In this document: positions 1,596-60,845 of the stretch, piece after piece
Layout: each line of letters opens with the position of its first letter
Position numbering within the stretch: the stretch's first letter is position 1
Source: Polytrichum commune
Lineage: Eukaryota > Streptophyta > Polytrichopsida > Polytrichales > Polytrichaceae
Reading direction: 5' to 3'
Assembly (NCBI GenBank): GCA_950295325.1
Contig: OX485807.1
Coordinates: forward strand, 51,882,796-51,946,795
DNA: 64,000 nt
Notes under the pieces: generated by a model
Databases searched by the model: none
The model's input: only the letters and a program-made list of their open reading frames with translations
What the model was told of the DNA's origin: nothing
Program-made: the position numbers and the translations under genes

Positions 1596-4250
1596 TCAGC
1601 TAGCAGTAACTTCTGGTGCGGGCTGAGCCATGAAAGTTTGCAGATGTTTTTTGCCAGATTTTCTCTGCCATGTGCTTTTCAACAATGATTCCAAAAATAA
1701 TGCCCTGAATTCACCAAAGGAACATTGTTTGAACTTGGGAAGCTCCTCTGCAACCAGCAATTCCGGGATTGGACCCACCATACTCTCGTCTGCAGGGTTG
1801 GTGAACATGGCAATGCTCAATCGAGGCTGTGAGCTCACAAAAGCTCGGTGCTCGATGCTTTTGTACCTTCCATTAGTTGCAATCTGCAACAGATCGATCA
1901 AATGGTCACGTAGTTGTCAATCTCCTCTAGTTAATATCCTAGTATTTCTTTGGCCCTGCCTGTGTACTGATTTGTCAGACCCTTGCTGAGTTAGCTCAAC
2001 AGAGACATGTTTTCTAGACGTGGGGTACCACATGTTCACAATGAAAAAAGCATGTCACTTGCAATTTCAATTACATGATTACCTCCGTGTGGTCCCCCAA
2101 GTTCACAATGAACGCACCCTCAATGGGTTTTACAGTTATCCATTGTCCATCTTTCAGCACTTGCAGCCCCGAGTTCATGTCTTGCAAAAGAATTGTAAGT
2201 GCACCAGGGTCCGAATGCTTCACCAGGCCCAGGGCAAGCTCCGGCTGTGGACAAGAAGGATAGTAGTTCGCTATAAAACTCTGGACACAATCCTCACCGA
2301 GATATTCATTTATGTAGGAGGGTTTCAATCCCAGGCTCTCTGAAATCAGCTCCAGTACTTTCTTTGCAAGCTTGTTCAACTCCTCATAGTAGCGCTCAAC
2401 AACTTCTCTGCAAGAATCAGGGGTTTCCATTGTTGAATGATCATTCAGAAGGTAGCTAGAGGTAGCTCTGTAAAGTGGTGGAAGTTTACCACAAAACTAG
2501 CCAAGTAAAGGATTGAGTTCTCCCTGTGAGACTGAGAGTCACAAGCTGCTGCAAAATCACCTGAGACTAAAATCCGTGACGGAAAATTGCCATCAATCCC
2601 AACTTTTGTAGCGTTTCTAGGCTTAATGAGTTAGAAGTCAATTCTCTTCAATTGTCACTGGAGTTCATTCTCTGGAGTTATGACCACTTGTTGGTACTTC
2701 AAGGGAAAAACTAACTTGAAACCTTATTCACTCAATTCCTAGAACCAGTGCTAGGCATCTCTCGCATTCATCCTTGGAAATTCGCTCATATTCAAGACGT
2801 CACTCATATATTATGAGGAGAAAGATAAACCAAGTATTTATTGTAAGTAACTTAGCCCTGTTGTGGGCACTTCCAACGCCACAGAAATTTGGCCATTGGA
2901 TTGGATCGGGATTTGTTTTGTCTGTCATTTCAAAATTTGGAATGAGGTTTAAGATGCAAAAGTTATAAGTGGTCAAAGTGAAGATTCTCTCTCTTTGAGT
3001 GATCACATAGGCTCTACCAATTGTGTTAACTAAGGTAGAAATACCATAACCCATGAAAATAAGGTGATTTGCATTGAAGATCTGGTCTGACAATCATGAG
3101 ATAATTTCCCAACATAGGCAAGAAGGATTCATGAAGAATGCAAGTTGTTTCATATTTTTTTGCCCTATACAGAAAATGCTGCAATTTTTCAAAGTGGAAA
3201 CTTGTCCAAACCCCTACTCGTTCACTAGATTCTCCCTACAGTGAACACGGTAATCCGCATTTCCATACAGAATATCGCTTAAATCGGTTACCTCATGAGT
3301 ACATTAACACTTGACTCCCATTGGTTACACTAAGTGTACACGCATTGAAGTTGCCGCTGAGCCATGATCGATTTTAGAAATGACACTTCACCATTATGAC
3401 GGCGGTCTAGTGCACGGCTAGAGGGTGGTTAACGGGTTATGGTATTTCTACCTTATTCAATCTATGAAGTGCGTCTTTGAGCGTACAGTCCAATCTCATC
3501 GTAACATATGTATGTCCTTTTTGGTGTCCAGTCATAACTACAAGCCTAACGAAATATAGGAGTTATCGCTGAGTAAGAATGAGAATACTAAGCTTAGTAC
3601 TTATTACTAAGTGAATGCAGCTAGTTATACAATCCTTTGAAGCAAACACGTATCAAGGTGGGTCAACAACAGATTATTACATTCTAATACAACCTGTCTT
3701 TGTGGAATTAATTGTCGATTATTATTCCTCACCTGAAACGAGAAGGATTCTTCGGCCACAAGTCATATTTCCGAGATGACACAGGAAAGATTTGGTAGTG
3801 CAACCGATCACTCCACATCGAAAGTGCACCCTCAGTCAAAGCTTGCCTGGTGGAATAACCGTCAGTCCGGCGCTCCGGGCTCAAGGACATCACTTTGTTC
3901 TTCTCCTCTGTCGGAAGCTCCAGAAACTCGTGAACCACTTGTTGCATCTCTTTTATCACGGACAACGGGATACCATGGTTCTTCACTTGAAAGAACCCCC
4001 ACTCCTCGCACGCGGTTCGGATTTGTTGCACTATCTCACTGTGGCAGTCCCCTCCTGCAGCTAGTTGAGTTTCAGCCGCCTCGTCCATGTCGATCAGAGG
4101 AAGTTCAAGAGAAGATTCCATGAGCGACAAATTTGATCCATCCTTGAGATTGCATCGCTCCTCTTCAGGAACAATGAAATCGCCCGGAATTTCCTGGAGA
4201 CGGCCATTCTCGGCCAGCTCTTGAACAGTTTTGCGTTGACTCGATGACAT
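1596..4250 (-). CDS. 2-oxoglutarate/Fe(II)-dependent dioxygenase, copy 1 (3 exons)
   Basis: Exons on the minus strand are 4250-3733, 2407-2083 and 1883-1596, joined by GT-AG introns of 1325 and 199 bp. The joins are in phase and give 376 residues, normal for plant DOXC enzymes. The N-terminal DIOX_N part carries LPLIDMD near residue 50 and WGFFQVKNHG. The catalytic 2OG-FeII domain has NYYPSCPQP, the HxD iron ligands H237 and D239, the third ligand H293 in SIEHRAFVS, and R302-L-S304, which binds 2-oxoglutarate. Such enzymes are soluble and oxidise small molecules such as flavonoids, salicylate or hormones; the substrate cannot be read here. The start is the first ATG of exon 1 and is shared by all three copies. 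Exon 2 has two extra codons (GEDCVQSF) compared with copies 2 and 3. It is clearly the most diverged paralogue. The exon assignment is strong; the enzyme's exact function is unknown. Confidence 0.92.
2408..3732 (-). other. Intron 1 of dioxygenase copy 1
   Basis: Donor CAG|gtgagg at 3732 and acceptor cttgcag| ending at 2408. It is phase 2, splitting an arginine codon, as in copies 2 and 3. Related short stretches (for example ATTTGGCCATTGGATTGGAT) recur in intron 1 of the other copies, showing that intron 1 is ancestral to all three. No inserted element with clear ends was seen here. Confidence 0.85.
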
Positions 4251-4879: not shown

Positions 4880-5378
4880 CAATGAATGGGGAGCAGTGAT
4901 GGGGGAGGATTTTGGGCATAATCGGTTGAGATCCTAGTGTTTGCAAATCCAGCTAGTTACATATGTTGACATCCTTCGGTTTTCCTATATTAATTTGAGG
5001 TATATTATTCTGTAAATTCCGCCTTAAAAATGGTGGGTAATATTTCTAAAGTGACTGGTAATTCTCCCGAAGTCTTGAACTTCAACCTGCTATTTCTCAA
5101 ACTCAACCGGTTCATCTGCAACTCACTGCCGGTTCTCCCGGATCATAGATGGGGAGAACCGAGCGCTAGCTCCAGATGAACTGGTTGAGTTTGAGAAATA
5201 AGTGGTTGAAGTACAAGACTTAGGAATATTACCCACCATTTTTAAGGCTGAATTTGCAGAATAATATGCCTCAAATAAACAAATAAAAACCGAAAGATGT
5301 CAACATGTAACCAGTTGGACTTGGAAACACTAGGATCTCGACCGATTCAGTTATGCTCAAAAACCTCCCGGGATGCTG
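4880..5378. mobile_element. hAT-type MITE with a second copy of the same family nested inside it
   Basis: The outer copy starts at 4880 (CAATGAATGGGGAG) and resumes at 5156, ending near 5378; its 8-bp flanks are AAAGTGAG and AAAGGGAA, a decayed duplication. The inner copy, in opposite orientation, occupies 4894-5147 (CAGTGATGGGGGAG...GGATCATAG) and is bounded by a perfect 8-bp duplication ATGGGGAG (4886-4893 and 5148-5155). The pair forms a long imperfect inverted repeat immediately upstream of where the TATA box of copy 1 would be expected. Superfamily from CA..TG-like ends and 8-bp duplications. Confidence 0.8.
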
Positions 5379-5629: not shown

Positions 5630-5854
5630 GAATTATTGGGGAGAACCGGCCGCTACAAACAGATGACGTGGTTGACTTTGAGAAATAACCAGTTGAAGTT
5701 CAAGACTTCAGGAAAAGAACCAATCGTTTTAGAGGAATCTGTGAAATGTACTTCAATTTAACAAAGAAAAACCGAAAGATGTCTACATGTAACCGGTTGG
5801 ACTTGGAAACACTAGGATATTGACCGATTATGCCCAAAAATCTACCCGGACACT
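5630..5854. mobile_element. hAT-type MITE, same family, 225 bp
   Basis: Same length and sequence organisation as the copy at 14300-14524. The flanking 8-bp duplication is TTTTGCAT (5622-5629) and TTTTGCAC (5855-5862), one mismatch. Termini are diverged but alignable, GAATTATTGGGGAG against CAATGATCGGGGAG. Confidence 0.8.
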
Positions 5855-6068
5855 GTTTTGCACGAATTTCTGCCCATGTTGAGACCACGAATATCTGCCC
5901 ATATTGAGACCACGAATATCTGCCCATATATTGAGACCCCTACATGTTCCGCTTTGGCTCCCACTAGATTTCGGGGAGGGGGGGGGGGGGTAAAAGTAAC
6001 CATAATATCTTCATCTGCGTGGTAAAAGCATGGTTTTAAAATATTGCAACGGCATAATGCAAGGACCA

Positions 6069-8074: not shown

Positions 8075-9298
8075 GGGGCGGTTTACACTATGGACCATGA
8101 AGTTGGACCAGGGCTCTGCAAGGCAGCTGATTGGCTCTTGAAGTTGTCCCGGGACAATTTCGGTTTACACTAAGGAAAAAAATGGCAGAGGGACCACGGA
8201 GGTTGAGGTCCCCAAAATATAATTTTTAAGGCCTAATAAATGCACTGACATGGTCCAACGGGTTTTGCGGTGAGAGAGGCAAGAGAGGTGGTCTGGTAGG
8301 AAAAGGCAAGGGCCCATGTCAGAGAAATGCCATTTCAAGAATGTTTTAATGAATCTACCTTTTACGTGCCTTAATTATATTATAGCCCATGAGACATACC
8401 AACACTATCTTGCCCTACCCCTTAAACCGGCTTACACGTGTTTCATCAAACAACGCGGGACATCTAGAACTCAAGAATTCAAGTGCAAATTTGTTTTTTT
8501 GATCTACCTGCAACTGCAATGTTTGGAATTTGGGGGCGTGTAATATACCGTTGAAGGTCTTGAAAATACCTTTCCAACGGTATATTACACGCCCCAAAAT
8601 GTTTAAAAACTACAGTTGCAAAACAAAAAAGAAAAATACGTAGTCGTTTAATGATTGTAGATCAGGGTGGTCAAAAGAAGCGCAATGGGAAATCTTCTAA
8701 CATTAATTATCAAAGAATTGAAATTTAGTGTTGAGCAAGGTTGGGTGGTAACAACATTAGATATAATCAAAAACTAAATATCCTATTTAGTGTAGTGACA
8801 ACACAAGGTACATGTCACATGTAAATTACATTGAACATGTACAAATTGAATCGCTCATTTTTTTTGTAAAAATTGTTGTGAGAAGATTTGCAAGCCACAT
8901 CTTCGACACATTTAACAAGAAGTGAAGACAGTTGAAGCCCAAGAGATGACAAGAGAATGATCAAACTTTAAGGCGAAAAGAAGAAAAAACTAAGTGACAA
9001 GATAACTGAAGGCATGTGTAGGCAAGTGAAGGCAAATTAAAGTCAACAAAATGGTCAAACTTCATTTTTTCCCAAAACTGCCCTTTTTGGGCTTATATTA
9101 AAAAAATCAGCACATCCACTTCTTGCCGCATGGTCATTCCTCTTGGTCCACATTCGGTTTACACCTAGTGAGGGGCCCAACGGCTTTGTAAATCAATTTT
9201 TTAAGAACTCGGACCATGAAATGTAGACCATGAACTCTTACCGCGGAATAAGGCATCTTCCGTGGGACGAGTTCATGGTCTATGGTGTAAACCGCCCC
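8075..9298. mobile_element. PIF/Harbinger-like non-autonomous element, 1224 bp
   Basis: Ends GGGGCGGTTTACAC...GTGTAAACCGCCCC with the 3-bp duplication TTA (8072-8074 and 9299-9301). Inverted terminal similarity continues through ATGGACCATGAA/TTCATGGTCTAT. The duplicated segment has the empty site (ATACTTAGGACTCAA near 34208). Further GGTTTACAC copies lie subterminally (near 8163 and 9149). No transposase reading frame. Confidence 0.9.
8533..8595. other. Short perfect hairpin inside the Harbinger-like element
   Basis: The arm GGGGCGTGTAATATACCGTTG pairs without mismatch over 21 bp with its complement ending at 8595. A further AAGGT/ACCTT pair follows and the loop is about 8-10 bases. Could be a nested foldback or a small-RNA-like stem. 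Confidence 0.7.
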
Positions 9299-10210
9299 TT
9301 ACGACTCAATTGTCATAAGTCCTCCAAGAAGTAAGCGAAGAAGACATTCTGATGTATGTTCTCAAGAGTCTGGTTCACAAACTAATATGCTTCATCTGTT
9401 GCATCCCACCTTTCTCCTCAATCTGTCTTGACAAGGAGCGCATTTGCTAAATAATGAAGATCGCACATACAATAATGAGGCTCGTTTCATGCTCGTTTCA
9501 TCAATTTCATTGCGCCTCAGCTTGAAATAACGTTTGGTGTGGCTGAGCCAAGTCCCTGGTTGAGGCATAAATGCCGGCCAGGGACAAAGGGCCCAAACAT
9601 CTCAGCCGTCTGGGGCTCTAAGCGCGGGATTTCCCATTCTGTCTCACTTTATTGTTGCCCGAAGGCTTGCTGCCCAGCCCTAGTGTGGGGAACTTGCAAC
9701 TCCACATGACAAGGTAGACGGGCCTTGAATGGTTACTTCTTCTCCAACTAGCTCGCGTCTCTTAGGGTATGGAACACACGATTAGTACGAGATGGTTAGC
9801 AAATCTAAATGGAAGTTGTGTCCGTTCTCTTCATTATTTTGGAGCTCGTATGAACAAATTTATCATTATCAAAGAATAGTTTTTTTGCGCTCATTTTATG
9901 GTCATCCCCCTCATTCATACGCACACAAAAACAACTATATTGAGTACTGAGCTTACGATGGTTATCCAATTGTTCTGAACATGTGTCTTCTTGGTATCCA
10001 TTTTTAGGGCCTCGCCACACCACACCGCATTGCATACCATTCAAATGTAGGTGTCCAATTAAGATGAGTAACCAAATTAGGCATGGAAAATGTTTTTTTT
10101 CTGGTTAACTATCGTGGGTCATAAAGGTTGTCACTTTGATTCTCAACATCGGATTTGACATGCAAACACTATAAAATTTGAAAGGAGAGTACGTTTGTCT
10201 TTAAACCTCA

Positions 10211-10945
10211 AAGAACAATGTATTACCAAAGTTTAGTTGACCTTGAGACATGAATCTTTTCTCATTTTTAGGGTTATTTTGACAACGTTCTTTTCATACT
10301 TTTGAAAGATGGCTTCTTGTACATTATAGTGTACTCCCAAATGAAGAAAAAAAATGTAGTTTATTATCTTCATTGATACAATTAGCAATTTGTTTTCCAT
10401 GCTACAAAGTAGGTTGTCAAAAAGTGCTCTTGAGACCATTGTTTGGCTCTTTTTCAGTTTGGACGGCTCTATGAACCTAAGATTAGGAATTTAAAGGACC
10501 AACACAAAGAAAATATCATGGCAAATGTTCAGAAAGAAATTACATGATTGGGGAACACCTCATGGAGCAATGCATTGTAAAAGAGTTTATTTGACCTCAA
10601 GACATGGGGTCTTCCCCCCTTTTGGAGGGTCACTATCAAAATGTTCCTTTCATTCTTTTGAGAGATTTATTTTTGTACATTATATTGTACTCCAAAATGA
10701 AGTGGAATATGTAGTTCATTACCCTCATTCATAAAATTAGAAATTTGTTCTCAATGCGACAAAGTAGGTCCTAAAAAATTGCTCCTGCGACCAACTCCTT
10801 GGCTATTCCTTTAATATTTGGATGACAACATGAACCTAAGATTAGGAATTTGAAAGGCCAACACAAAGAAATATTCATATGACACACTTTCAATAAAATC
10901 AAATAATATCATTGGAAAACACCTCAAGGAACATCATCAAGGTTT
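10211..10945. repeat. Tandem repeat, ~359-bp period, inside the Mutator-like element
   Basis: Two diverged units; the landmark GAACCTAAGATTAGGAATTT occurs at about 10473 and 10832. Units also share GTACATTATA(G/T)TGTACTCC and CTACAAAGTAGG/CGACAAAGTAGG-type stretches. Confidence 0.75.
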
Positions 10946-11159
10946 AGTTGACCGTAGTAAAAGGAAACTTTATGGATCATCCAAACATTATAAATTAGAT
11001 TGAAATTAGGTGACATTTGTTGAACTAGTGATAAGTTCATTAAAATATTGTCAAAATTTCTAAGTTCACACAATATTTGCTATGGTCTTATCAATGAGTC
11101 ATTAATGATTTTTGAGGTTTAAACGAGATCGGAAATTATCGTTCTTGGCTTATAGGGGG

Positions 11160-12065
11160 CTCTTTAGGGAAAGGGCCAGATTAAGCATCATTGAAGCTCA
11201 AAGTTGCAGCAAATATCGGCGATCCCAAGCTCCTTGCAGAGGCAATGAGGTCATATCCTAGGCAAGAGGATTTTCATACAAGGAATTGTACACTGGAGGG
11301 CTCAGAGTTGTTTGGATCAACCAAGAGGAAACTAGACTTATTGCCTGGATCTGAGTATGATTCTCATCGTCTTGACAAAGTGAATTACTCCATCCCTCAC
11401 CCCAATACAAGGTCAACGAGGGCATGCATACATGAATCCTTCAAGCATGATGAGAATGTGGTGTCTCACACCAATATTGTGTTGCAGTCAGAGTGTCATG
11501 AATCCCAGTGGTATATTTTACACTTGCCTTATCCATCCAAGAAAGAGTGTCAAGCACTGTAGGCAAATACTAGACATCCATGTAGGGCTAAAGTCGGGAA
11601 GAGTACACATGGCACACCTATGCCAACTACACATGCATGAAGAAAGAATACGGTTCCAACAACCACGTTCTTTAAATTTTTGGTTTTGTGCAGATGACAT
11701 TAATTGATGCGTGAAGGGGAGCAAGAAAAAACGGGTGTTTGATTGGCCAAATCTCCCTAAGGTGTGGTTGGTGGAGGTTGGTACAAACCTGACACATGAG
11801 GAGGTGTTTGCATTGGAAAATGTTGGGTTTCAACTACAACAGAAAGAGGCACTATCACCACGTTGTCGATTGAGAACAATGACAAACCTCTCCATCCCTC
11901 ACTCACATTTCCGTGTTCCTCCAAATCCATATGCACACCCAAACACACGGTTTTCCAAGGCAGTTCGATGGAACATGGCATTATCATTATCATAGCATAG
12001 GAATAAATCAGAGAGCGCATTACACATGGATGGGCATTATGTGGTTGGTGTGACTCCCACTTCAT
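11160..12065. other. Unrecognised interior of the Mutator-like element
   Basis: Open stretches at 11191-11562 and 11711-11995 (plus strand) have no motif I recognise. They could be captured gene fragments or chance. No MULE transposase signature was seen. Confidence 0.3.
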
Positions 12066-13029
12066 ACCCTAGATATAGATGCATCATAACCATAGTTTTG
12101 TAAGAGGAGAAAATATACCTTGTCTCCTTTGCAGATATTCTGCAATGCACTTGCCCGGACTTTGCAAAAATGTTGTCTTTCGTAGTATGAAAGAGGGGTC
12201 AGTGGATTTCATGCAAGCACTTGTATTATGTGTTTAGGTATTTATGCAAAGTTGACTACGCCATTGACAATTTCATTTATGCACCGACATTTAGCTATAA
12301 CGAGGTGATGCATCTTCTTTAGCTTGCGGGTGTTGCAGAACAGGCTTAGTGGCATAGGGTCGATGGGCATGGACACAATTATTCCTCATTTTTACATATA
12401 TAAAAATATATGTGTATGTCCATATAAAATGTATGTAGTGCAAACTGATGGTGCAACTAAATAGTTGTTTGTCACAATAAAGTGCTTGACATTTTAATGG
12501 CATACTTGACATCTCATTAAAATGCCTATCGCCATGGATCGGCAAGCTTTTTGAAATCCATGGTAATAGGGCCGAGTTCAATATTTTGTCTGCCCACAAT
12601 GTTACTTTCATAATATATAATTCAACTATATTAGAATAATTTCTTTTAAAATATTATTATTGGTCATTTTGTTGCTCACTACTTACATGTAACCACTCAC
12701 TGCTCACCGCTCACCACTCAACGCTCACATGCTAGCTTCCCTCCTAGCAAACTACAAAAGGCTCAAAATTTTTTTGAGAACTATTTGGCAGATCCTTCTC
12801 AAGTTCTTCATGAAGTGGACATATATGGTTTAATATTTGGAATGCGGTCTCAAATAACCGCATATAATGGTCTTAAAGTTTAATTTGTACAATTAAAGAA
12901 GATTTATGGTACAAAATGTTTACGGAATCCAAGCAATGAGATTGTGTTGATACTCAATCAAGGTGCAAACACGTGCAAACACATGTTGACTTTGAAAAAG
13001 ATTGTTTGACAAAAGCTACTACAATATAT

Positions 13030-13718
13030 AGGATGTTATAGAAGATGATACCTTCTGCATACACAATGTAATCTACAAGGAATTACCATCCAATGAAGAT
13101 GAAATAAGGATTGCAAGAACCCTTGAGATAGTCAATGATGATGATATGTTCTATAAGGAGGTTGAAGATCTTCAGAAATTATTGCAGAGCTTTAACATTG
13201 GAACATTATTCATTAATGAAAAGAACTTTTTATGTGAGCAAAGAAGAAAACATATCCCTTGTCCATGTCACATGTCAAGAACAAAATATATTCATGATAT
13301 TGGTGAGTTGCCTCCTACAACGACGTTATCTACAAAAATTTAATTTCTTTGACCTAATACAAGCTTTGAGAGTCGTCGACGTCACTATGTGGTAAAGAAA
13401 CATTATCATGCTAAAATTGAAAAAACAAACTTGTATTGCTTGTGGCACCTACAATGTCATGCTTTCAAAAGAGAGGATTGTATATTGCAAAAATTGTTCT
13501 CTCGATGTGAGTAAGAATGCCCAACCTACATGTGTGGATCTTTCATTAGTCGTGTTGTAGAAATGTATTTCATAAATGAGGATAAATGGTATCCAATAAA
13601 ATTAGCAAGTTTCAATTATGCCACTTCAGGTGAGCATTATCAATCACATAGGATTGACTTAAAAAATGGAGTGGTTATATGGGGAATGCAATTTCCAAAT
13701 GCAAATGTAAGCTACTAG
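13030..13718 (+). other. Possible captured coding fragment in the Mutator-like element
   Basis: Plus-strand stretches encode acidic, plant-like peptide (for example IARTLEIVNDDDMFYKEVED before 13200 and YFINEDKWYPIKLASFNYAT near 13570). No start-to-stop gene can be defined and no family was recognised. Elements of this kind often carry host gene pieces. Confidence 0.3.
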
Positions 13719-14299
13719 TGTACAATGTAACCGATTTCATTCAATACCACTTAAAAAAGCAAAGTTAACAAATGGTTTTGGACATTGTACCTAGAATAGT
13801 AAATTCCTAAATGTTGTATATATTAATTTCCCTAAGTAAATAAATAAACAATTCCATATACTTTTTATAACATATATATTATCATGTTGATTTACATGAT
13901 CAATGCATAGATTTTGCAGTGATGCATAATTCAGTGAAGTCGACTAAACTTTGCCGATGCATTAATCTCTGAGGTTTTGTCAAATCACGCTATTTCTTTT
14001 CAAAAGTGTGTCATCAATATTTCTTTGTTCATACGAGCTCCAAAATTATGAGAACAATATATGCACCTTCAATTTAGATTTGCTAACCAACTCGTACTAA
14101 TCGCATGTTCCATACCCTAGGAGACGCAAGCTAGTTGGACAAGAAGTAACCATTCAACGCCTGTCTACCTTGTCATGTGGAATCGCAAGTTCCCCACACT
14201 AGGGCCGGACAACAAGCCTTCAGGCAACGGCAAAGTGGGACAGAATGGGAATTCCCGCGCGGAGAGTCCTGAACGGCTGAGATGTTTGGGCCCTCCGTC

Positions 14300-14524
14300 C
14301 AATGATCGGGGAGAACCGGCAGTTAGTTACAAATGAACCGGTTGAGTTTGAGAAATAACCGGTTGAAGATCAAGACTCCAGGAAATTACCGATCATTTTA
14401 GAGGAATTTATAGAATATACCTCAATTTAATAAAGGAAAACCGGAGGATGTCAACATGTAACCGGTTGGACTTGCAAACACTAGGATCTCAACCGATTAT
14501 GCCCAAAAATATCCCCGATCACTG
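14300..14524. mobile_element. hAT-type MITE inserted in the right terminal repeat of the Mutator-like element
   Basis: 225 bp, from CAATGATCGGGGAG to TCCCCGATCACTG. The 8-bp duplication is CCTCCGTC (14292-14299) and CCTCTGTC (14525-14532). The left terminal repeat of the host element (near 9580) lacks this insert, so the MITE arrived after the host element. Three AACCGGTT palindromes lie inside. Confidence 0.9.
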
Positions 14525-14544
14525 CCTCTGTCCCTGGCCAGCAT

Positions 14545-17500
14545 TCATGCCTCAACTAGGGACTTGGGCGGCAGAGCCATGACAGTGTGCAGATGGTCTT
14601 TGCCAGATGTTCTCTTACGCCAACTTCCAAAGTATGATTTGTAGTATGATTTCTTGTTTTCATCGTAGGAACGTTGTTTGTACTTGGGAAGCTCCCTTTC
14701 AGCCAGCAATTCGGGAATGGGACCAACAATACTCTCGTCCCTAGGGCTGACGAACGTCGCGATGCTCAATCGAGGTTGTGAGCTCACAAAAGCTCGGTGC
14801 TCGATGCTTTTGTATCTGCCATTGGTTACAACCTGGAACAGATTCAACAGTTGCCTGGATGTCAAATCTCCCTCCGTTAATAGTATTGTAACATTTCTTC
14901 GGCCGTCTCTGTGCAATTTGTCAGGGCATTGCTAAATTAAGGGGGATGGGCTATAAATGGTTCCTGGTTTAAACTCGACTAGAAAGTTAAACACACAATT
15001 GTTTGAGATTACCACGACCAAACCAGCCATAGCTACACTGAATATAATGATGTTTAGTTTCCTATGGTACTTTATGTCACTATGGTAGCTTTTCGGATGA
15101 CACTTCTTATGAATAAGTGAACAAATGTTGTCATGGATGATGGATGATGGATGAGTTCGTCCATCGGCCAAAGCCGTACCTTCTCTAGTCAACAACTTGT
15201 GATTCAATATTGTCATGGGTGATTGAAATTTGGATGGAAAATCACTTGGTAAGTGGTAGTAATTGCAACAGTGTATATCTACAATGACCCCCCAAAAAAT
15301 GACAAGGAATGACAAATAATGTTGGGTTGAGATATAATGGTGTTGGTGACACTACACTGTGGTTTGCAATTACTATTGAACAAGACAATTAGAATTTGGT
15401 GACAGGAAATATCATATGTAGTGTAGTTTCCTCATAAATGTAGAGAGCTCATATACATATCTTATGCATTTTCAAAGTGAAGATTTTCTTTATGCTTAAA
15501 TGATCACATAGAATAGTTAACAATTTGTGAGCACATGGTCCAAACACTTTTAGACATGGCATTTTGATGTCCGTTCCTAAAAACAAACCTAAGCACATGC
15601 CAATCAAATATAGGTGACCAATCAAGATAAAGTAATTGAATTTGGTTTGTTTAACTCAACAGATAAAGTAATTAAAATCAAGTTTTGTTGAATTCAATTT
15701 TTCAACAGATATTGTTGTTATTTGAAGAGCATGTAACCACAATTCCACATGATAAAAAAGAAAGACCACGTCACATGAAATTTCAAGCAGATGGTTACCT
15801 CGATTTGGTCCCCCAAGTTCACAACAAACACACCCTCCATGGGTTTCACAGTTATCCATTCTCCATCGTTCAACACTTGTAGCCCCGGGTTTTCGTCTTG
15901 CAAAACAAGTGTAACTGAACCAAGGTCCGAATGCTTCACCAAACCCATCGCGAGATCCGGCTGCGGACAAGAAGGATAATAATTTGCCTGAAGATTTTGG
16001 ACATCACCGAGGTATTCATTCATGTAGAAGGGTTGCAATCCCAAACTCTCTGAAATCAACTCCAATATTTTCTTGGCAAGCTTATTTAGCTCCTCGCCAT
16101 ACCGCTCAGCAACTACTCTGCAAGAAATAGGGGTCCTCAGCAATGAACTTGATACTTAAAACTTTGCTAAGACAAGAACATCTCTTTGAAGTGTTGGGTA
16201 ATCACAACACTACCCCCCCCCCCCCCAAATAAAAATAAAAAATGCCACAACTCTCATTATGTTAGAAAATAAGAACAAATAAATAAATGAAAATAAAAAA
16301 CATTTTTCCATTGCAAGGGCAAAATACAACTATGAGAAGAGCCCATGACCCAGTACCGTGCCCAAGAGGTTCCCCCCAAAATAAATAAATAAATAAATAA
16401 TCGCTTACCCACCTAACCTAATTTCAAATAATCGAATCACCATGAAATCAACAATCCCCCCACTACCTGGCAACTTAGCAACCCGTGTCATTTAGCAATT
16501 AAATGCCTTCAATTGGTGGGTGTTCAATTTTTTCATTTTGATGTATCCCCACTACGCTCACATAATACATAATTTATGAGCTCCCCAAAGTTTGAGAATG
16601 TGCTCGAAATACCAATCTTTGCTAGTACACAAGGCTTTCACGATCATTATGTACGTTATAAGTCACAAGTTGTTGCACTGTCACCTGATACTAAACATGA
16701 TGATGCAAAATTGCCGTTACGCCCAACATCAGTCCTTTTCTAGGCTCAATGAGTTAGAGGTCAGATTCTTCTTCAAGTGCCATTGCAAGTTAATCTCAGA
16801 CTGGAGTTATGACCAGTTGTTGTCATTTCCAGGACAAAACCACCAACAAAAAAAAAAAAAAACTAACTTATTCACTCGATTTCTCGAACCAATGCTAGGC
16901 ATCTCTCATCCATCGTTTGAAATTTGGTCATGTTCAGGATGTCACTTGAATCTTATGAAAAGGAAGATGTAATGTATATAATGTAATGGAAATGGCTTTA
17001 TTGTGGGCACTTCCAACTCCACACAAAAAATTGGCCATTGGATTGGATTGGGAATTGTTTCATCTATCATTTCAAGTTTTAGAATCAGAGTTATGACGCA
17101 ATAGATAAGTCAAGGTCAAGATCAAGCTTCCCTTTCTCTTTAAGGGATCACATTAGCTATCCTAAGATTGTTAACTCCATAACCTATATAGGATGCCCAT
17201 ATATGTCTTAGCAATTAGTCCAATCTCACCAAAACATATTTCAAATTTGGTGTTCACTCATAGCTATAACCCTTGCCATTCACCACTTAAATGTAGGTGT
17301 ATGTTGATTAAGAAGAGTGACCACTTAAAACCCACATGCTTAATTGTAATGAGAACAACTAAAGTAAATTACTTTGAGTGATTCTTCTGAGATTTGAGTA
17401 AGGTTGAGGCATCCATGGTCGATCAAGTCCATTTAACTACTCACTAGGGTCATGTAATGCCGACATGGATGGGATCTATATATTTTTTAAGCGAATGGAG

Positions 17501-18475
17501 TAATCAATCACAAGCTGCCATCACAGTTGGAATGTAGCAATTCCATATCATTACTCAACACCTACTGTTTGTTCAGTGGGCCCTCTAAATGTAATAATCG
17601 GATGCTCGGAAAGCTAAGTCTCCTGCTCAACTTATCGAGCATAAATTGTTTTATTCTAAGAGCCCACTGAACAAACAATGGGTATTGAGTAATATTATGT
17701 CCACATTCTCCTTAGAAAATGTTTCTCTTCGCAGATGTTTCTCTTCGCAGAAATTGTTTCTCTTCCATCAACACGAGTCCAAGAAGCTGTAAAGAATTGG
17801 TGGATGGCGCAGAGGCTACTAAGTTCGTACTCCATCGTTGCAGCTATTTATATTATCCTTAGTTCAGCAAATACCTGCTATGAAGGTGGGTCAAGAACAA
17901 ATTACATCTAAACTTACAACTTGTCCTCATTAACTTCAATATCGATAATTTATTCCTCACCTGAAACGAGGAGGATTCTTCGGCCACAAGTCACAATTCC
18001 GATTGCACATGGGAAACAAATGGCAGCGCAAGCGATCGCTCCACGTCGAAATCGCACCCTCACTCTTACCTTGCCTGCTGGTGTAACCTTCTAAAGTAAC
18101 AGCCTCCGGACTGGTGAACCTCACTTTGTTCTTCTCCTCTGGCGGAAGCTCCAGAAACTCGTGAACCACTTGCTGCATCTGTGTCATCACGGACAACGGC
18201 ACGCCATGGTTCTTCACTTGAAAGAACCCCCACTCCATGCAAGCGGCTCGAACTTGTTGCAATAACTCACTGCGGCGATCTCCTGCACCCAATTGATCTT
18301 TGGCCACGTCGTCCATGTCAATCAGAGGAATTTCAAGAGCAGCTCCCGTGGTCGAGAAAACTGGTCTATCCTTGAGACTGCACCGTTCCTCTTCAGGAAC
18401 AATGAAATCGCCCGGAATTGTGCGGAGATGACCATTCTCGGACAGCTCTTGAACGGTTTTGCGTTGAGGTGACAT
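14545..18475 (-). CDS. 2-oxoglutarate/Fe(II)-dependent dioxygenase, copy 2, C-terminus supplied by a transposon
   Basis: Exons are 18475-17961, 16117-15799 and 14832-14545, with the same phases as copies 1 and 3, giving 373 residues. The iron ligands are H234, D236 and H290, and the 2OG-binding motif is R299-L-S301. Introns are 1843 and 966 bp. It is very close to copy 3 (for example NYYPSCPQPDLAMGLVKHSD is identical) but has RVVAERY where copy 3 has REVAERY. The last residues (PKSLVEA) and the TGA are encoded by the terminal inverted repeat of the Mutator-like element at 9548-14567. The native ending, still seen in copy 3 as MAPLHRTLLQTEM, has been displaced. All catalytic residues lie well upstream, so activity may survive, but the native 3' UTR and polyadenylation signal are now 5 kb away beyond the element. 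Confidence 0.92.
15032..15360. mobile_element. TIR MITE (~320-bp type) in intron 2 of dioxygenase copy 2
   Basis: Starts CTACACTGAATATAATG, ends near GGTGACACTACACTGTGG. Its interior (GACACTTCTTATGAATAAGT, GATTGAAATTTGGATGG) matches 56391-56697. Only the right part survives in copy 3 (about 36170-36236), where other elements disrupted it. Confidence 0.65.
17544..17699. mobile_element. Foldback MITE in intron 1 of dioxygenase copy 2
   Basis: 156 bp with long arms: ACTGTTTGTTCAGTGGGC on the left pairs with GCCCACTGAACAAACAAT on the right, and outer ends TTACTCAA/TTGAGTAA also pair. The orthologous element in copy 3 is at 38036-38192, so insertion preceded the duplication. Confidence 0.8.
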
Positions 18476-19075
18476 AGTCAGTGCGATTGGATACCCAGAT
18501 ACACGTATCCTACAAAACTACAGCTCCTCGGTGTCCTCTAGTTCTGCACCAGGGTTATGCCAGCTTGCTACATTAAATTGCAGGAGACGAGAGTGAGAAA
18601 CTCCATGGGGCTCCTTCAAGCAGCATCAGAAAGATCCAAATTGTTCATAGCTTCCTGGCACAGGAAATGATGCCCAACCATGCAACACTGGAAAGGTTAT
18701 TATGTCAACCTGCATACAGAAGCAAGCACTCTGGACTGGAAATCTCTGAAAATGAACAATATTGGGCTACCTTTGATTCCAGAAACCCTTGCGATTCAAG
18801 TAAGGCATGCAGCAAGAAACTCCCTAATGAACAAGAAATCTACAAGAAATTCTACAATTCATTTTGGGCTATATGGATAAAGCGATGGATAGGCTAGCGA
18901 CTCCCAGTCTGAATTCTTCTGTTGTTTCCAATTGCAATGAGAAGCATGTGGTGAGTTGGATGTTGGGACGATATTTGCAAGCTAAACAATGCAAAAGTTC
19001 TTCGTCTTTGCAGATTGCTATGTACCGGATTGTCTAACTAGCTAGTCACCCACAAGATATCACAAAAGTGGGGCC

Positions 19076-19083
19076 CTTTATAG
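19076..19083 (-). promoter_or_regulatory. TATA box of dioxygenase copy 2
   Basis: CTATAAAG on the minus strand, about 600 bp upstream of the ATG and inside a GC-rich GGGGCTATAAAGGGCCC context. It is conserved at the same distance in copy 3 (39660-39667). A CATGCATG (RY-like) element lies just upstream. The long distance implies a long leader or a 5' UTR intron. Confidence 0.55.
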
Positions 19084-19179
19084 CCCCATCCTTAAGCATG
19101 CATGAAGATTGCAAATTATTCATTCAGGGATGAACTTATCACAACAACCGTCAAGAATCCTGTCTTGTTCCGTGGGCAT

Positions 19180-22090: not shown

Positions 22091-24513
22091 TGTCACAACC
22101 CTTGCTAACTCCGTTTAACTAACTTGGTCATTTTTATTTCTAGCAAGGGTCACGAGCAATAACCCTTTACATTCAACCATGTTAATGATTAGCTCCCAAC
22201 ACCACGGACCTTAGTTCATAGAAGGGAAACCAACCTGTGAGCCCAAAATGGTGCTCACATGTGTTCTTAACTCTTCGAAACCATTAGAAGTTATGTTTTC
22301 ATGTTTTATTATTATTTACAAAAATATTAAAAAAATGAAGCTTGAAGGAAGTTATGTTGAAGCATTAGGCTTGTGTGGAGTGGATTGATTAGAAGATTAG
22401 TAGTGTGAGGAAGCTCCTTAGTTGGGGAGCGTAGTAGGTGGAGAACCAAGGGTAGTTCCTTGAGTTAAAAGTTTAAATTAGGATCTAGGTTGTTCGTTTG
22501 AGGGACAAAGGCTTAGAAGATAAGATGAGAGCCTATAAAGTAGGAGAGGATTACGAAGGCTTATCTTGAGGGTGCTCACCTACTCCCTCTCAACTCACTA
22601 TATAAGCCCTCATTCTTCCCTTTCTCTTCCTCTCTTTCCTTCGTGTTCTTCGGCACCCCACGTGTTATAAGTGTGGGTGTGTAGGAAGCAAGATAGGAGC
22701 ACGTGTGTGTGCATGGTTTTAGGGTGAAGAGCCAAGACTAGTTAGCCTTGAGGTGGGTTTGACTTCTTGTTAGGAGTAGCTTGGGTCAAAAGAATTTAGA
22801 GTGTGATTTATAGTCTTCAAATTGTAGTACTTGGATTCATGATATCCATACTTATAATTATTTAGACTTACAAGGTTATGATTATGAAATATTGGAGCAT
22901 TTAGTTTTGTTGCATTTAGAAATTATATTTATGAAGTATTGGAGCATCTAGTATTGTTGGGAATTGCAAATTTACATTTACATTTAAGAATGATTGTTGG
23001 GATGTAGCATTTGACTTAATGCACTTAGAGATAAGTATTTAGCTCATAGTGTTCAATCTATAGTATTTAGATTTATAACATTTAGATTTCTAGTGTTTAA
23101 GTTTGTTGGGTTAGTGGTTAGGCCATAAGCTGGGTTTATATAGGTTGGGTTAGTGGTTAGACCATAAGCTGGGTTTACATAGGTTATATTAGTAATTTAT
23201 ATAAGCTGAGTTAGTAGCGGGGCTTAGTCTACTAAGTTAGACCACTTGGTTCAACTAATTGGTTGGTAACTCCATTAAAAGGTTGAACTTGGTAGAAAGT
23301 TGTGAAGGCTTGTGAAGAGGAGGCTACAATAAGTTAGACAAGTATTTCTTAATACTTAAGTTTATGTGCTCATGGAATCAATACGCGAGGTGTCATGTAC
23401 CAGCGAGGAATCAACGGCTAGGACTAGATTCGAACGAGGTAAATCCTTGAAGGCGTGTGTGGCAAAGACGGCCGGGTGGACGTTGGAGAAAACTAAGGAT
23501 GTAACCTTGCCCGAAATCAAAGATAATAAAATGACATGATATGGGTTTCGCTCATAACAAGTTGTGTATTTTATGTATATTCTAACGGTGTATTGGAATT
23601 ATACATTGAACTACCGAGGAGGGAGTTATTATGTGTCAGTTCAACATTTCACACTCGGGTTAGGACGAAATCAAGGGTGAGGGACTTTGGGTGACACAAC
23701 CCTCCTACTTTGCTTTCGGGACTCACCCCTTAATCAGTACCCAATTCTTAGATGTGAACTTCCATCCATGGAAGTCCAATCTTATGTTAATCATCGCGTT
23801 GCCGAAGCAACACTACAACAACCTGAACCATACTAGGCAACTATGCCCCCACATTGGACCAAAGCCCATGGAGGTCGTGCCGTTCGGCCTCGGGTGGGTG
23901 AGGCCACACCACCTCATCCATATAAGCCTCTAGGATTTTTGGCAGGGCCCATATCCCACTGTCAAGAAACCTTTTGTCTTTCTACCAAGAGTTGGGGCCA
24001 GGTAGACATTTCCCTTTGGGTGATGAGGCTAGAAGCCCCCAGCAGCTTCAGAACACCATAACTTCCTTATATGATCTTAGATGCAAGCATGCAACCACTC
24101 CATCATCATCTACGCTTCACGTAGATGCCGATGGACTCCTCACTTGCCCCATTCGGGCAAGAATTGAGGAAGTTTCGGCTCTTCAAACCTTGGCAGTCCC
24201 GGGAGACACTCCCAGGCCACTGGTGTACCAGGGCGCCCCACTCAAATTGCCATAACTCCTAGCTCACACCTCCAATCGAGGTGTTGTTGAGCATTCTACA
24301 ATCCGCACACCGTAAGCTACACATAACTTATGGCCTTAGCCTTGTGACTTCTAGTCGTTGTGGGTGGGAGGCGTTCCTAACGCCTGGGGCCCTCACCCAC
24401 ACTAGGATCACTTGGGCCCTCTCACCAATGGCGCCACAAGTCCCAGGTGTCACTCCGGGGTCCCCCTTGTGCCCATGGTGTTTCGGGCACTCCTTATTGA
24501 GAGGTGTGCGACA
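22091..24513. mobile_element. TIR repeat element (TGTCRCAACCC family), copy split by a solo LTR
   Basis: Starts TGTCACAACCCTTGCTA at 22091, is interrupted at 22236-23696, and continues to about 24513 (GTGCGACA, the inverse of the start). The same sequence in the opposite orientation forms 26380-27387. GC-rich interior with recurrent short motifs such as CTCACTTGCCCCATTC. No coding function recognised. Confidence 0.65.
22236..23696. mobile_element. Solo LTR of an LTR retrotransposon
   Basis: 1461 bp with TGTGAGCC...GGGTGACA ends and a perfect 5-bp target duplication CAACC (22231-22235 and 23697-23701). A TATATAAG promoter-like box lies near 22602. No internal coding region is attached; this is a fossil left by recombination between LTRs. 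Lineage undetermined. It is younger than the TIR element it splits. Confidence 0.8.
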
Positions 24514-25989: not shown

Positions 25990-26379
25990 AGAAAAGAAAA
26001 CAAATGAGCACAAAGGGGACCCCATAGTGACACCCGGGACTTGTGTTGTCATCGGTGAGAGGGCCCAAATGATCCTAGTGTGGATGAGGGCCCTGGGCGT
26101 TGGGAACGTCTCCCACCCACAAAGACTAGGAATCATGAGATAAGGCCATGAGCATTGGGTAGCTTATGATGTCTGAATTATAGAATGCTCAAGAACTCCC
26201 CAATCAAAGGTGTAAGCTAGGAGATATGGCAATTTGAATGGGGCGCTCCCTACGGACAGCGCCCAACACTCCATGGGGCGTTGTATTGGGACAACAGTGA
26301 CCTAGGACTGGCGCCTAAGACTATTGATGTTAGGACAATCATAACTCCCGCAATAATTGCTTGAATGGGACAAGTAAGG
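25990..26379. repeat. Partial copy of the TGTCRCAACCC-family element
   Basis: Matches the interior of 26380-27387 in the same orientation (GGATGAGGGCCCTGGGCGTT, GCTAGGAGATATGGCAATTT). A further partial copy in opposite orientation lies just beyond the element, at 27388-27640, giving the cluster an overall palindromic layout. Confidence 0.65.
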
Positions 26380-27387
26380 TGTCGCAACCCTTGTTAGCTT
26401 CCTTAACATTCTTGCCAATTTTTGTTTCTAGCAAAGGTTACTAGCGGTAACCCTTCGCATTCCGCCATGCTAATGGTTAGCTCATCCTACCCCGGACCTT
26501 ATAGTTCATAAGAGGGGAACCAACCCTCCTACTTTGCTTTCGGGACTCACCCCTTAATCGGTAACCAATTCCTAGATGTGGATGAGGGCCCCAGGCGTTG
26601 AGAATGCCTCTCACCCATGGAGACTAGGAGTCATGAGGGTAAGGCCATGAGTTATGAGTAGCTTATGGCGGCGGAATTCTAGAATGCTAAGGAACACCTC
26701 AATCGGAGGTGTGAGCTAGGAGATATGGCAATTTGAGTGGGGCGCTGTCCCGGGACAGCAGTGACCTGGGAGTGGCGCCCGGGACTGCCTAGGTTTGAAC
26801 AGCCATAACTTCCTCAATACTTGCCCGAATGGGGCAAGTGAGGGATCCATCGGCATCTACGCAAAGAATAGATGATGATAGAGTGTTTCTTGATAGCATC
26901 AAACATCATATGTAGAAGTTATGGTGGTCTGAAGCTGCAGGGGGGTTCTAGCCCCAGCAGCTATGGGAAAATGTCTACTTGGCCCCAACCCTTGTAGACA
27001 AGACAAAAGGATACTTGACGGTGGGGTAGGGGCCCTGCCCAAAGTCCTAGAGGCTTATAAGGGTGAGGCGGCTTAGCCGACCGACCCCCCGGAGCATATT
27101 TGGCAATTTGCTCCAGGTAGTTGTAGTGTTGTTTTGGCAACACAATGATCAACTCAAGAGTGGACTTCCATGGATGGAAGTCCACCTTAGCCATTGGCTA
27201 CCTACTAAGGGGAGAGTCCCGAATGCATGTGTAGGAGGGTTTGGTGACCAAGCTATGAGCTTGAAGGTCCGCGGTATTGGGAGCTAACCATGCATGTGCG
27301 TGGGATGTGTAGGTTAGCGCTCGTGGCACTGGCTAGGGTTGGGAGGCGGTCAAGCTAAGTTAAGGAAAACTAGCAAAGGTTGCGATA
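26380..27387. mobile_element. TIR repeat element (TGTCRCAACCC family), ~1.0 kb
   Basis: Left end TGTCGCAACCCTTGTTAG; right end, inverted, TATCGCAACCTTTGCTAG. The inverted similarity extends about 200 bp (CTTTCGGGACTCACCCCTTA against CATTCGGGACTCTCCCCTTA). Flanks CAAGTAAGG and CAAATAATC could be a decayed 9-bp duplication. It is the reverse of 22091-24513 without the LTR. Confidence 0.7.
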
Positions 27388-27640
27388 CAAATAATCGTTT
27401 TCCCTTAGCCGTTGGGGCTAAAGCCCCCTCGCAGCTTCAAACCTCCATAATTGCATTGTTTAATCTCCAATTCTATAAACAATCAGTCCATTGATGTTTG
27501 CTCTTTGTGTAGATGCCAATAGACTCTCTACTTGCCCCATTCATGCAATTATTGCAAGAATTATGGTTGTCCCAAGATCAGCAGTCTTGGGTGCCACATG
27601 TTTCCAGGACAGTACCCATCCAAATCTAGAACTCACAAGC
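27388..27640. repeat. Partial inverted copy of the TGTCRCAACCC-family element
   Basis: GGGGCTAAAGCCCCCTCGCA and the CTTGCCCCATTCATGCAATT stretch match the family interior in the orientation of 23697-24513, opposite to 25990-26379. Confidence 0.6.
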
Positions 27641-30875: not shown

Positions 30876-31286
30876 CACGGGGGGGGATCACTCCATTGTC
30901 AAGTTGAACACCACGTGCGACCAAAAAAAATCTTCTTTTGGTAAGTTGCACCACCAAAATGAGTCAAAATTTTATCAAATGTTTTTCATGAGTGGATATA
31001 CACAATACCTATGACATAGTTAAAAGTGGTAACTAAATTTGATGATTTGTTTTTTTCATAAAACATGCCGTTTCTAACTAGAATGACACAGAATTGAACT
31101 AAAACAATTACTAAAAAAACAAAGATGACTAAAAATTTCAAAAAAATATACAAAAGATACTATCAATGGTTATGTATATGTAGAAAAAATATCATAAATT
31201 TTAAAATTATATATGGCATGTAATATAGGGGTAGCAAACTTTGTCCGCACGTGGTGTCAACTTGACAATGAAGTGACCTCCCCGTG
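30876..31286. mobile_element. MITE with CACGGGG ends and perfect 8-bp duplication
   Basis: 411 bp. Terminal inverted repeat of about 40 bp (CACGGGG..., ATTGTCAAGTTGA, CCACGTGCG) and duplication CCTCCTTA at 30868-30875 and 31287-31294. CA...TG ends and the 8-bp duplication fit the hAT superfamily. The whole sequence recurs inverted at 60437-60845. Confidence 0.9.
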
Positions 31287-33067: not shown

Positions 33068-34406
33068 TTACTAGCTATGTAAAGGTAGGGCCTAGGCTAG
33101 GATAGGTGCTAGGCATCCAGTTCTTCACAAAGGTCTTAAATGACTTTTTTTTCATGTCCCCCAAAATGCACTAGGGTATGGAATACACACTATTATAGAC
33201 CCATTAAAGTTTCAAGTAATGCCATAGGGACTTCCATCTAAATTGCCCAAACTCATAGGAATAGGATGTTCTTATTGAAATTAAGCGTCCCAGTGCTCAT
33301 CAAACATTCATATGGGAGTGGTCGATTTTTTTCACTATTGAGTCTATGGCGGTAAACTTCATATTCTTAGTAAGCAATCTGCAAACTTTTAACACATGCA
33401 TTCTTGGTACTCATATTTTAAGCCACACCAAACCACACACCATTCAAATATCCTTTTCCAATCAATTATAAGTACTAAGCAAATTAGGCATGCCTACCTT
33501 ACATTGTGATATGCAATTATGGCTCCAGTATGAGTGTCACCATAGTATCAAGTGTAACTTGAAACAAAGGTTAACGTGGAACAAACGTTGCTTAGTGAGT
33601 GCTTGGGGGGTTGGATTCTTCATACCACATATGAACTAACAGAAGTGTAAGGGTATTAATTGAGGCATGAGCATACATAGTATACATAAGGCAGAGGTGT
33701 TATTTTTCTCTGGTGTTGTACATTTAAAAAGGCTATTACAAATTTTGAAGTATACGTAGATGTACCAAAAAGGGGCCTAAGATTGAGAGAAAAAATCGAT
33801 AATAATTGTGTTAGTTTCATTCAATTTATGACAATGTGTCCACCAAATGTGGCATATGAAGTTGGCATATGCTCAGAATTAATGAGGCAATGCTCTAGGA
33901 TTTTGGCTTAGGGTGCAAAGGACACCATTCCCAAAGTGGCATAGAGATTGGGATTTCCTTCATAAAACAGTGCTATAACAAAATGAATGGAAGAAATTTT
34001 ACTTTGTGTTAACAACTTTGCTTCGTTCATGTAACTAAGCCTTACATCCTTAAAGCTATTAATATGCAATTGTAGATTTGACTCTGGCCAATTGACAGAG
34101 ACCTACTCACCCTTGCATCAAGTACAGAGCTATTTATTCCACACAATGTTTCTAGTTTCAAGATGATCCTAAGAAAGCAACCCAAATTAAAGCAAACTTA
34201 TATACTTAGGACTCAATTGTCATAAGTCCCCCAAAATTTAGCAAAGAAGAAGACATTCTGATGTATATTCTCAAGAGTCTGGTTCAGAAACTATGCTTCA
34301 TCTGTTGCATCCCACCTTCCTCTTCAATCTGTCTTGACAAGGAGCTGATTCGCTAAATAACGAAGATCACACATACAATATTGAGGCTCGTTTCATGCTC
34401 GTTTCA

Positions 34407-39057: not shown

Positions 39058-39659
39058 AATCAGTGCAATTGGATACCCAGATACACGTATCCTACAAAAC
39101 TACAGCTCCTCGGTATCCTCTAGTTATGCACCAGGGTTATGCCAGCTTGCTACATTAAATTGCAGGTGACGAGAGTGAGAAACTCCATGGGGCTCCTTCA
39201 AGCAGCATCAGAAAGATCCAAATTGTTCATAGCTTCCTGGCACAGGAAATGATGCCCAACCATGCAACACTGGAAAGGTTATTATGTCAACCTGCATACA
39301 GAAGCAAGCTCTCTGGACTGGAAATCTCTGAAAATGAACAATATTTGGGCTACCTTTGATTCCAGAAATCCTTGCAATTCAAGTAAGGCATGCAGCAAGA
39401 AACTCCCTCATGAACAAGAAATCTACAAGAAATTCTACAATTCATTTTGGGCTATATGGATAAACCAATGGATAGGCTAGCGCTCCCAGTCCGAATTCTT
39501 CCGCTGTTCCCAATTGCCATGAGAACCGTGTGGTGAGCTGGATGTTGGGACGATATTTGCAAGCTAGACAATTGCATGAAAAGTTCGTCAACTATACTTG
39601 CTATGTATCGAATTGTCTACCTAGCTAGTCACCCACATGATATCAGCAAAAGTGGGCCC

Positions 39660-53154: not shown

Positions 53155-53340
53155 GGAGATTTTTGGGCATATCCCGGTGTTCCAAGTTCAACTAGTTGAA
53201 TGTTGTGATATTATGAATTTTCTTTATCCATTTGGAATACACTCCACATATTCCATTACACTCGTTGTCGAAGTGTTGAACATCAACTGGTTCCTTTTGA
53301 AACTCGACCAGTTCATTTGTACCTATATTGTTTGTCTAAT
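53155..53340. repeat. Distant relative of the AACCGGTT hAT-type MITE
   Basis: GGAGATTTTTGGGCATA matches the family start, and AACTGGTTCC...CTCGACCAGTTCATTTGTAC matches its interior. The middle is unrelated and termini are not preserved. Confidence 0.45.
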
Positions 53341-60436: not shown

Positions 60437-60845
60437 CACGGGGAGGTCACTTCATTGTCAAGTTGACACCACGTGCGGACAAAGTTTGCTACCCCTATAT
60501 TACATGCCATAGATAATTTTAAAATTTATGATATTTTTTCTACATATACATAACCATTGATAGTATCTTCTGTATATTTTTTTGAAATTTTTAGTCATCT
60601 TTATTTTTTTTAGTAATTCTTTTAGTTCAAGTATGCGTCATTCTAGTTAGAAATGGTATGTTTTATGAAAAAAAAAATCATCAAATTTAGTTACTACTTT
60701 TGACTATGTCATATGTACTGTGTATATCTACTCATGAAAATTTTTTGATAAAATTTTGACCCATTTTGGTGGTGCAACTTACCAAAAGAAGATTTTTTTT
60801 GGTCGCATGTGGTGTTCAACTTGACAATGGAGTGATCTACCCGTG
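60437..60845. mobile_element. MITE with CACGGGG ends, second copy (inverted)
   Basis: 409 bp, bounded by perfect 8-bp duplication ACGCCACA (60429-60436 and 60846-60853). Full-length match to 30876-31286 in opposite orientation with few differences, suggesting recent activity. CCACGTGCG near each end contains a G-box-like CACGTG core. Confidence 0.92.

Follow-up and report, generated by a model that had tools for sequence, protein, structure and literature searches.

One of the three 2-oxoglutarate dioxygenase genes in the window, the 64,000-nucleotide stretch of Polytrichum commune DNA analysed here, ends inside a transposable element that is Mutator-like in structure. The right end of this element encodes the C-terminus and the stop codon of copy 2, as the first-pass annotation had proposed, and the matches of the two flanks, the inverted ends and the reading frame support the proposal well. 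We regard the insertion, its polarity, the exchanged tail, the open frame and the domain matches, taken together, as nearly certain. The locus offers a clear natural example of a DNA transposon that swaps the C-terminal tail, the stop codon and the 3′ region of a gene in one event, and the window also contains the empty site in both paralogues.

All three genes lie on the minus strand, and each can be read as three exons separated by GT/AG introns (Table 1). According to the comparison of the window with itself, copies 2 and 3 form the close pair and copy 1 is more distant. In a Pfam scan of copies 2 and 3, copy 2 matched DIOX_N (E=9.2e-24) and 2OG-FeII_Oxy (E=1.7e-30), and copy 3 matched the same two domains. 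The genes are plant-type dioxygenases, a label taken from the solved relatives of copy 2, which number 73 distinct sequences with At5g05600 (6lsv) as the best match. Such enzymes are characterised by an iron-binding H-x-D...H and by R-x-S. Like plant 2-oxoglutarate dioxygenases such as At5g05600, copy 2 possesses both domains, and its H-x-D, distal H and R-x-S are aligned in three printed alignments (6lsv, 9vgi, 1gp4), in agreement with the earlier statement that the catalytic residues upstream of the element are intact. It differs from these relatives in at least 19 C-terminal residues that have no counterpart among the alignments listed; these alignments (the best stretch of each, for 60 of the 73 matches) all end at or before residue 354 of 373.

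Table 1. Positions of the dioxygenase copies, the inserted element and related repeats in the window.
Feature	Position	Strand	Basis or remark
Dioxygenase copy 1	4250-1596	-	376 aa
Dioxygenase copy 2	18475-14545	-	373 aa, frame open to stop
Dioxygenase copy 3	39057-34407	-	376 aa
Copy 2, exon 1	17961-18475	-	frame and GT/AG splice signals
Copy 2, exon 2	15799-16117	-	frame and GT/AG splice signals
Copy 2, exon 3, with its end inside the element	14545-14832	-	frame and GT/AG splice signals
Element-derived end of the copy-2 coding sequence (two-thirds of the Pro codon, KSLVEA, TGA)	14545-14567	-	translation
Last exon of copy 3, uninterrupted (empty site), native-type ending	34407-34700	-	window self-comparison, translation
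Copy 1, last exon, same empty-site ending	1596-1883	-	window self-comparison, translation
Mutator-like element (by structure) in the last exon of copy 2	9548-14567	.	inverted ends, target duplication of 9 bp and comparison with the empty sites of both paralogues
Left terminal inverted repeat, about 310 bp	9548-9858	+	arm alignment
Right terminal inverted repeat, split by the nested 224-bp element	14024-14567	-	arm alignment
Left target site duplication GTGGCTGAG	9539-9547	+	flanking 9-mer
Right target site duplication GCGGCAGAG, within the copy-2 coding sequence	14568-14576	+	flanking 9-mer
Native end of the C-terminal tail and 3′ flank that copy 2 had before the insertion	9298-9547	-	matches copy 3 34205-34444
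Nested small inverted-repeat element in the right arm, flanked by GGACAGAGG / GGACGGAGG	14301-14524	-	printed sequence, by eye
Relative of the nested element	4891-5146 (about)	.	window self-comparison
Relative of the nested element	5151-5369	.	window self-comparison
Relative of the nested element	5631-5855	.	window self-comparison; likely 9-bp duplication by eye
Relative of the nested element, in intron 1 of copy 3	37586-37809	.	window self-comparison
Relative of the nested element, weaker match	53155-53325	.	window self-comparison

The limits of the element agree with the sequence and give it a length of 5,020 bp. Its outermost 38 bases on the left have an inverted match starting from 14567, with 35 of 38 positions identical (three mismatches), and this terminus has no other occurrence in the window with up to 12 mismatches allowed. 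With the nested insert left out, the two arms are identical at 271 of 315 aligned positions, with 12 gap columns in addition; the inner 277 nt of the arms alone match with a BLAST E of 2.6e-78. Both figures confirm the claim that the element is bounded by inverted repeats. The longest exact inverted repeat of the element measures 23, whereas 50 mononucleotide shuffles gave at most 20 (mean 13.6). As a control for chance this exact-word comparison is weak, and the evidence for the element lies in the alignment of 315 positions and in the empty sites. On either side lies an imperfect 9-bp duplication, GTGGCTGAG and GCGGCAGAG being identical at seven of nine positions, a likeness reached by 0.21% of 200,000 random 9-mer pairs drawn from the window. 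The same target site reads GCAGCGGAG in copy 3 and GCGGGCTGAG in copy 1.

Both ends of the element begin with CCAAGTCCC and carry an internal palindrome (9552-9585 and 14530-14563), which on the left reads GTCCCTGG...GGCAT AA ATGCC...CCAGGGAC. Folded as DNA, the left palindrome reaches z=-3.78, with one of 200 shuffles as good, and the fold of the copy-2 RNA at the right end, computed with different energy parameters, places the stop codon in the loop at z=-0.96. As many as 33 of 200 shuffles fold as well as this RNA, and a hairpin at the copy-2 stop codon was therefore rejected as a special feature.

MULEs are described as having long terminal inverted repeats of typically 100–500 bp (PMC3310237) and target duplications of 9–11 or 8–11 bp (PMC3310237, PMC6446971; the range of 8–11 bp in the latter), and these sources describe a tendency to insert in or near genes. 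The element is like them in its arms of about 310 bp, which fall within the first range with 271 of 315 positions identical, and in its 9-bp duplication, which falls within 8–11 bp, agrees at seven of nine positions and is matched by empty sites in two paralogues. It differs in having no recognisable transposase in the scanned pieces: none of 14 (12 of the 50 listed frames and two read-through pieces, partly overlapping) exceeded a Pfam cut-off, and the DDE transposase of autonomous MULEs, often accompanied by a zinc finger, was not found in them. The name Mutator-like given to the element earlier thus holds for the arms and the duplication, that is, by structure only, and finds no match in transposase content among the 14 pieces; we set the element beside the class without assigning it to a named family. 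Most simply, it would be a non-autonomous or decayed member. Below the Pfam thresholds, the element gave HTH_Tnp_4 (E=0.077, 13 bits, cut-off 27), LRV_FeS (E=0.076, 13.4 bits, cut-off 27) and a SWIM zinc finger (E=0.62, 10.1 bits, cut-off 19.6). The first of these is the helix-turn-helix of another DDE transposase type; the last comes from a broken frame with three in-frame stops at 12002-12346, which shows a CxC...CKH pattern resembling a SWIM finger. A longer, nearly open frame at 13032-13718 has no Pfam match, and a direct repeat of about 400 bp (10205-10596 and 10557-10953) is 74% identical between its copies. Over the whole window, Rfam at the gathering threshold returned no matches and a tRNA scan no genes.

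The polarity of the event follows from the comparison with the paralogues. In the window self-comparison, the left flank (9298-9550) corresponds to 34205-34447 of copy 3 at 85.5% and the right flank (14568-15011) to 34436-34879 at 87.8%, and the region 1591-1993 of copy 1 matches 34409-34807 of copy 3 across the insertion point at 74.2%. Because its two flank matches overlap at the target site only, copy 3 represents the empty site. As copy 3 is empty and copy 1 shares its ending, the insertion in copy 2 is by parsimony the derived state, and it is copy 2 that gained the 5,020 bp. Its old 3′ flank now lies 5 kb from the gene.

Read on the minus strand from 14567, 23 bases of the element supply the rest of a Pro codon whose first base belongs to the target duplication, followed by AAG TCC CTA GTT GAG GCA TGA. 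The first-pass annotation had placed PKSLVEA and TGA inside the element; KSLVEA and the stop codon do lie there, and the Pro codon belongs to it by two-thirds only. Copy 2 ends in ...HTVMALPPKSLVEA and copy 1 in ...HLQTFMAQPAPEVTAS, each followed by the stop, and copy 3, the empty site, retains a different native ending as had been noted (...HLHTFMAPLHRTLLQTEM and stop). With the flanks joined, the tail of copy 2 before the insertion reads ...HTVMAQPHQTLFQAEAQ and stop, with MALP rather than MAQP if the right-hand duplication is used. About 10 native residues were thus exchanged for seven (element-derived residues 367-373), and the lost tail is variable, copies 1 and 3 differing in most of the corresponding stretch. 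Just before the junction, TFMA has become TVMA in copy 2, the replaced residue being common to copies 1 and 3. In the same reading, the left arm also gives KSLVEA and a stop, TAA instead of TGA. When read inwards, the right arm meets a stop in all three frames after at most six codons, and the left arm does so in two frames; an insertion in the present orientation would therefore yield a short new tail whatever the frame, and no adaptation is needed to account for it.

The DNA that follows the new stop codon is itself composite. At the 21st base after the stop begins a small nested element of 224 bp that is bounded by CAGTGATCGGGG / CCCCGATCATT and lies between a pair of 9-mers, its limits being set by eye, and the first 240 bases of any copy-2 3′ UTR would therefore be nearly all nested element. 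If the Mutator-like insertion does serve as a replacement 3′ end and polyadenylation region, as had been suggested, then most of that region would be the nested element and not the Mutator-like end. Miniature elements of the Stowaway and Tourist types occur at the 3′ ends of plant genes, and the nested element is likewise small, bounded by inverted repeats and located directly after a stop codon; it differs from them in its 9-bp duplication, a length that suggests the Mutator type instead. Its relatives in the window form a family of repeats of about 170-260 bp with inverted ends, present in both orientations, with likely 9-bp duplications at 14301 and 5631. Among eight poly(A)-like hexamers sought in the 400 nt after the copy-2 stop, ATTAAA (+113) and TATAAA (+132) occur, both in the nested element, and AATAAA is absent from these 400 nt. 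Copies 1 and 3 carry AATAAA at +287 and +268, respectively. The first 400 nt of the old copy-2 3′ flank have no AATAAA either, so that the insertion need not be the cause of its absence. In plants, hexamers of this kind are weak evidence.

Two differences in the nine bases of the target duplication suggest that the insertion is not recent: if it is as old as the whole copy-2 branch, at least two are expected with a probability of 0.20, which falls to 0.066 for half and 0.012 for one fifth of that age, although nine bases are a poor clock and one of the differences is a C to T change in CG context. Terminal arms need not be identical at insertion, and the 14% difference between them therefore provides no clock.

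Comparison of copies 2 and 3 gave a dN/dS of 0.40 (0.23-0.73) for the whole gene and of 0.31 (0.09-1.26), 1.10 (0.34-3.14) and 0.30 (0.11-0.72) for exons 1, 2 and 3. One indel, in frame, was counted in 1,092 aligned exon positions, compared with 24 in 1,781 intron positions, the intron count covering alignable parts only and its first segment including 17700-17799 with 44% differences. Both the dN/dS values and the indel counts sum over the two branches, and the constraint could be entirely on copy 3. Polarised with copy 1, the copy-2 branch has 11 nonsynonymous and six synonymous changes in the gene, of which six and three fall in exon 3. Random changes would be expected at 2.9:1, with 4.4% of them making stops, and the copy-2 changes are not clearly different from neutral. 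Divergence between copies 2 and 3 amounts to 2.5% in exon 1, 3.1% in exon 2 and 8.5% (22/258) in exon 3; the polarised changes in exon 3 are about equal in the two copies (nine and 10), and the excess there is therefore no mark of the insertion.

Upstream, divergence falls to 0-7% per 100 bp across 17800-18899, in coding and noncoding windows alike, and is 14-17% at 18900-19099 just beyond. This low-divergence tract (17800-18899 in copy 2, about 38380-39482 in copy 3) runs from the 5′ flank through exon 1 into the beginning of intron 1, and it looks like gene conversion. Exon 1 is spoiled as evidence for selection because it sits in this tract together with noncoding DNA. For the same reason we discarded, as proof of selection, a first test on the copy-2 branch, in which 18 of 1,086 exon positions and 39 of 845 intron positions had changed (p=2e-4). 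The 5′ flank, with 3/416, has even fewer changes than the exons. A further reason was that the comparison between branches is driven by one intron segment rich in copy-3 changes (p=0.08 with it, 1.0 without), and a two-state model of the unconstrained fraction of the copy-2 branch was not used because its result hangs on that segment. Within intron 1, 16118-17176 and 36874-38002, polarised with copy 1, differ by 71 changes in copy 3 and 23 in copy 2 over 572 positions, and copy 3 may therefore carry a segment derived from a different paralogue here.

We explain these observations as follows. A DNA transposon, Mutator-like by structure, entered the last ~12 codons of copy 2 at a time when this copy and copy 3 were already separate. 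The transposon end reads as six codons and a stop, so that about 10 variable residues were lost and seven gained and the catalytic fold upstream stayed untouched. With the native 3′ flank moved by 5 kb, the mature transcript would have to end in the element or run through it, and the most likely site for such an end is the small nested element that begins just past the stop codon. Copy 2 would still be expressed and its protein working, the change of tail probably being tolerated since the tail is dispensable. The position of residues 367-373 beyond the last aligned residue 354 and the differences between the tails of copies 1 and 3 suggest that the loss is tolerable. The whole chain, including expression, a working protein, a transcript end in the element and a dispensable tail, we hold tentatively, as falling just short of evenly balanced. 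The change from TFMA to TVMA and the missing AATAAA count against it, the latter with the qualification that the old flank has none. Moreover, the ratio of changes in exon 3 is near the random one, and copy 2 could therefore already be decaying.

Alternatively, copy 2 could be silenced or a young pseudogene, the insertion having removed 3′ processing or drawn silencing, with the frame still open because little time has passed. We consider this a serious possibility, albeit a less probable one than the retention of function. It agrees with a copy-2 branch ratio of 11:6 that is not clearly below the random 2.9:1, with the equally low divergence from copy 3 of exon 1 and its noncoding neighbours, by which low divergence is not all due to selection, and with the small number of changes: about 17 on the branch, at the stop-making rate given above, would be expected to produce less than one stop anyway. 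The dN/dS of the gene and of exon 3 and the scarcity of exon indels relative to intron indels argue in the other direction, as far as values summed over both branches can. A transcript that reads across the element and has its 3′ end formed in the old flank or in the internal region, making the element a long 3′ UTR or an intron, appears unlikely. The native flank is still in place at 9298-9547 and 85.5% like copy 3; however, the transcript would need to extend for more than 5 kb, and the stop codon would remain in the element regardless. Long inverted arms in one transcript would also form a hairpin that is a substrate for silencing.

That the insertion was selected, its new tail or 3′ region giving copy 2 a distinct regulation or property, seems very improbable to us. 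The intact frame of copy 2 and the apparent age of the insertion (P=0.20 at full branch age against 0.012 at one fifth) would fit such a benefit, but the 9-bp clock is tiny and includes the C to T change in CG context, the branch counts of copy 2 show no excess of amino-acid change, and copies 1 and 3 do not share a conserved tail. Equally far from our expectation is the broader idea that the end of the Mutator-like element works as a mobile gene terminator, with the nested element supplying 3′ processing and with clean new 3′ ends arising repeatedly in this genome from insertions close to the ends of genes; it takes its basis from the stops in all three frames of the right arm, the KSLVEA and stop present in both arms and the position of the stop codon in a hairpin loop.

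New poly(A) sites provided to genes by transposons are well known. In Arabidopsis, transposons in the 3′ region of genes can supply poly(A) sites (TE-ATTS), which are described as lying inside 420 of 599 such elements (PMC10241880). The cases named in the sections of that source on which we draw are retrotransposons supported by RNA evidence, whereas here a DNA element is known from its sequence, and the copy-2 element also encodes the last codons and the stop. Contributions of DNA transposons to plant coding sequence, as in copy 2, are likewise described for the exonization of Ds1 (PMC5432752) and for a miniature element in a wheat exon (PMC6824096); according to these descriptions they arise by splicing or within an internal exon, in contrast to copy 2, where the very end of the coding sequence is concerned. 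Among the portions of the open-licence literature consulted, we found no Mutator-like end that encodes the last codons and the stop of a gene, which is not a claim that none has been published. The kind of event, a transposon-derived gene 3′ end, is known and its mechanism ordinary; here it reaches into the last codons. Should transcripts confirm the use of the new end, the three copies would allow old and new 3′ ends of one enzyme to be compared directly; should they not, the locus shows how an insertion in the tail can silence a duplicate and leave its frame unbroken.

Elsewhere in the window, two further sets of repeats were observed. Inverted and direct repeats with identities of 66-82% lie nested in a cluster at 23690-24483 and 25998-27597, and an inverted pair of about 406 bp (30881-31286 and 60437-60842) is 94% identical at a distance of 29 kb.
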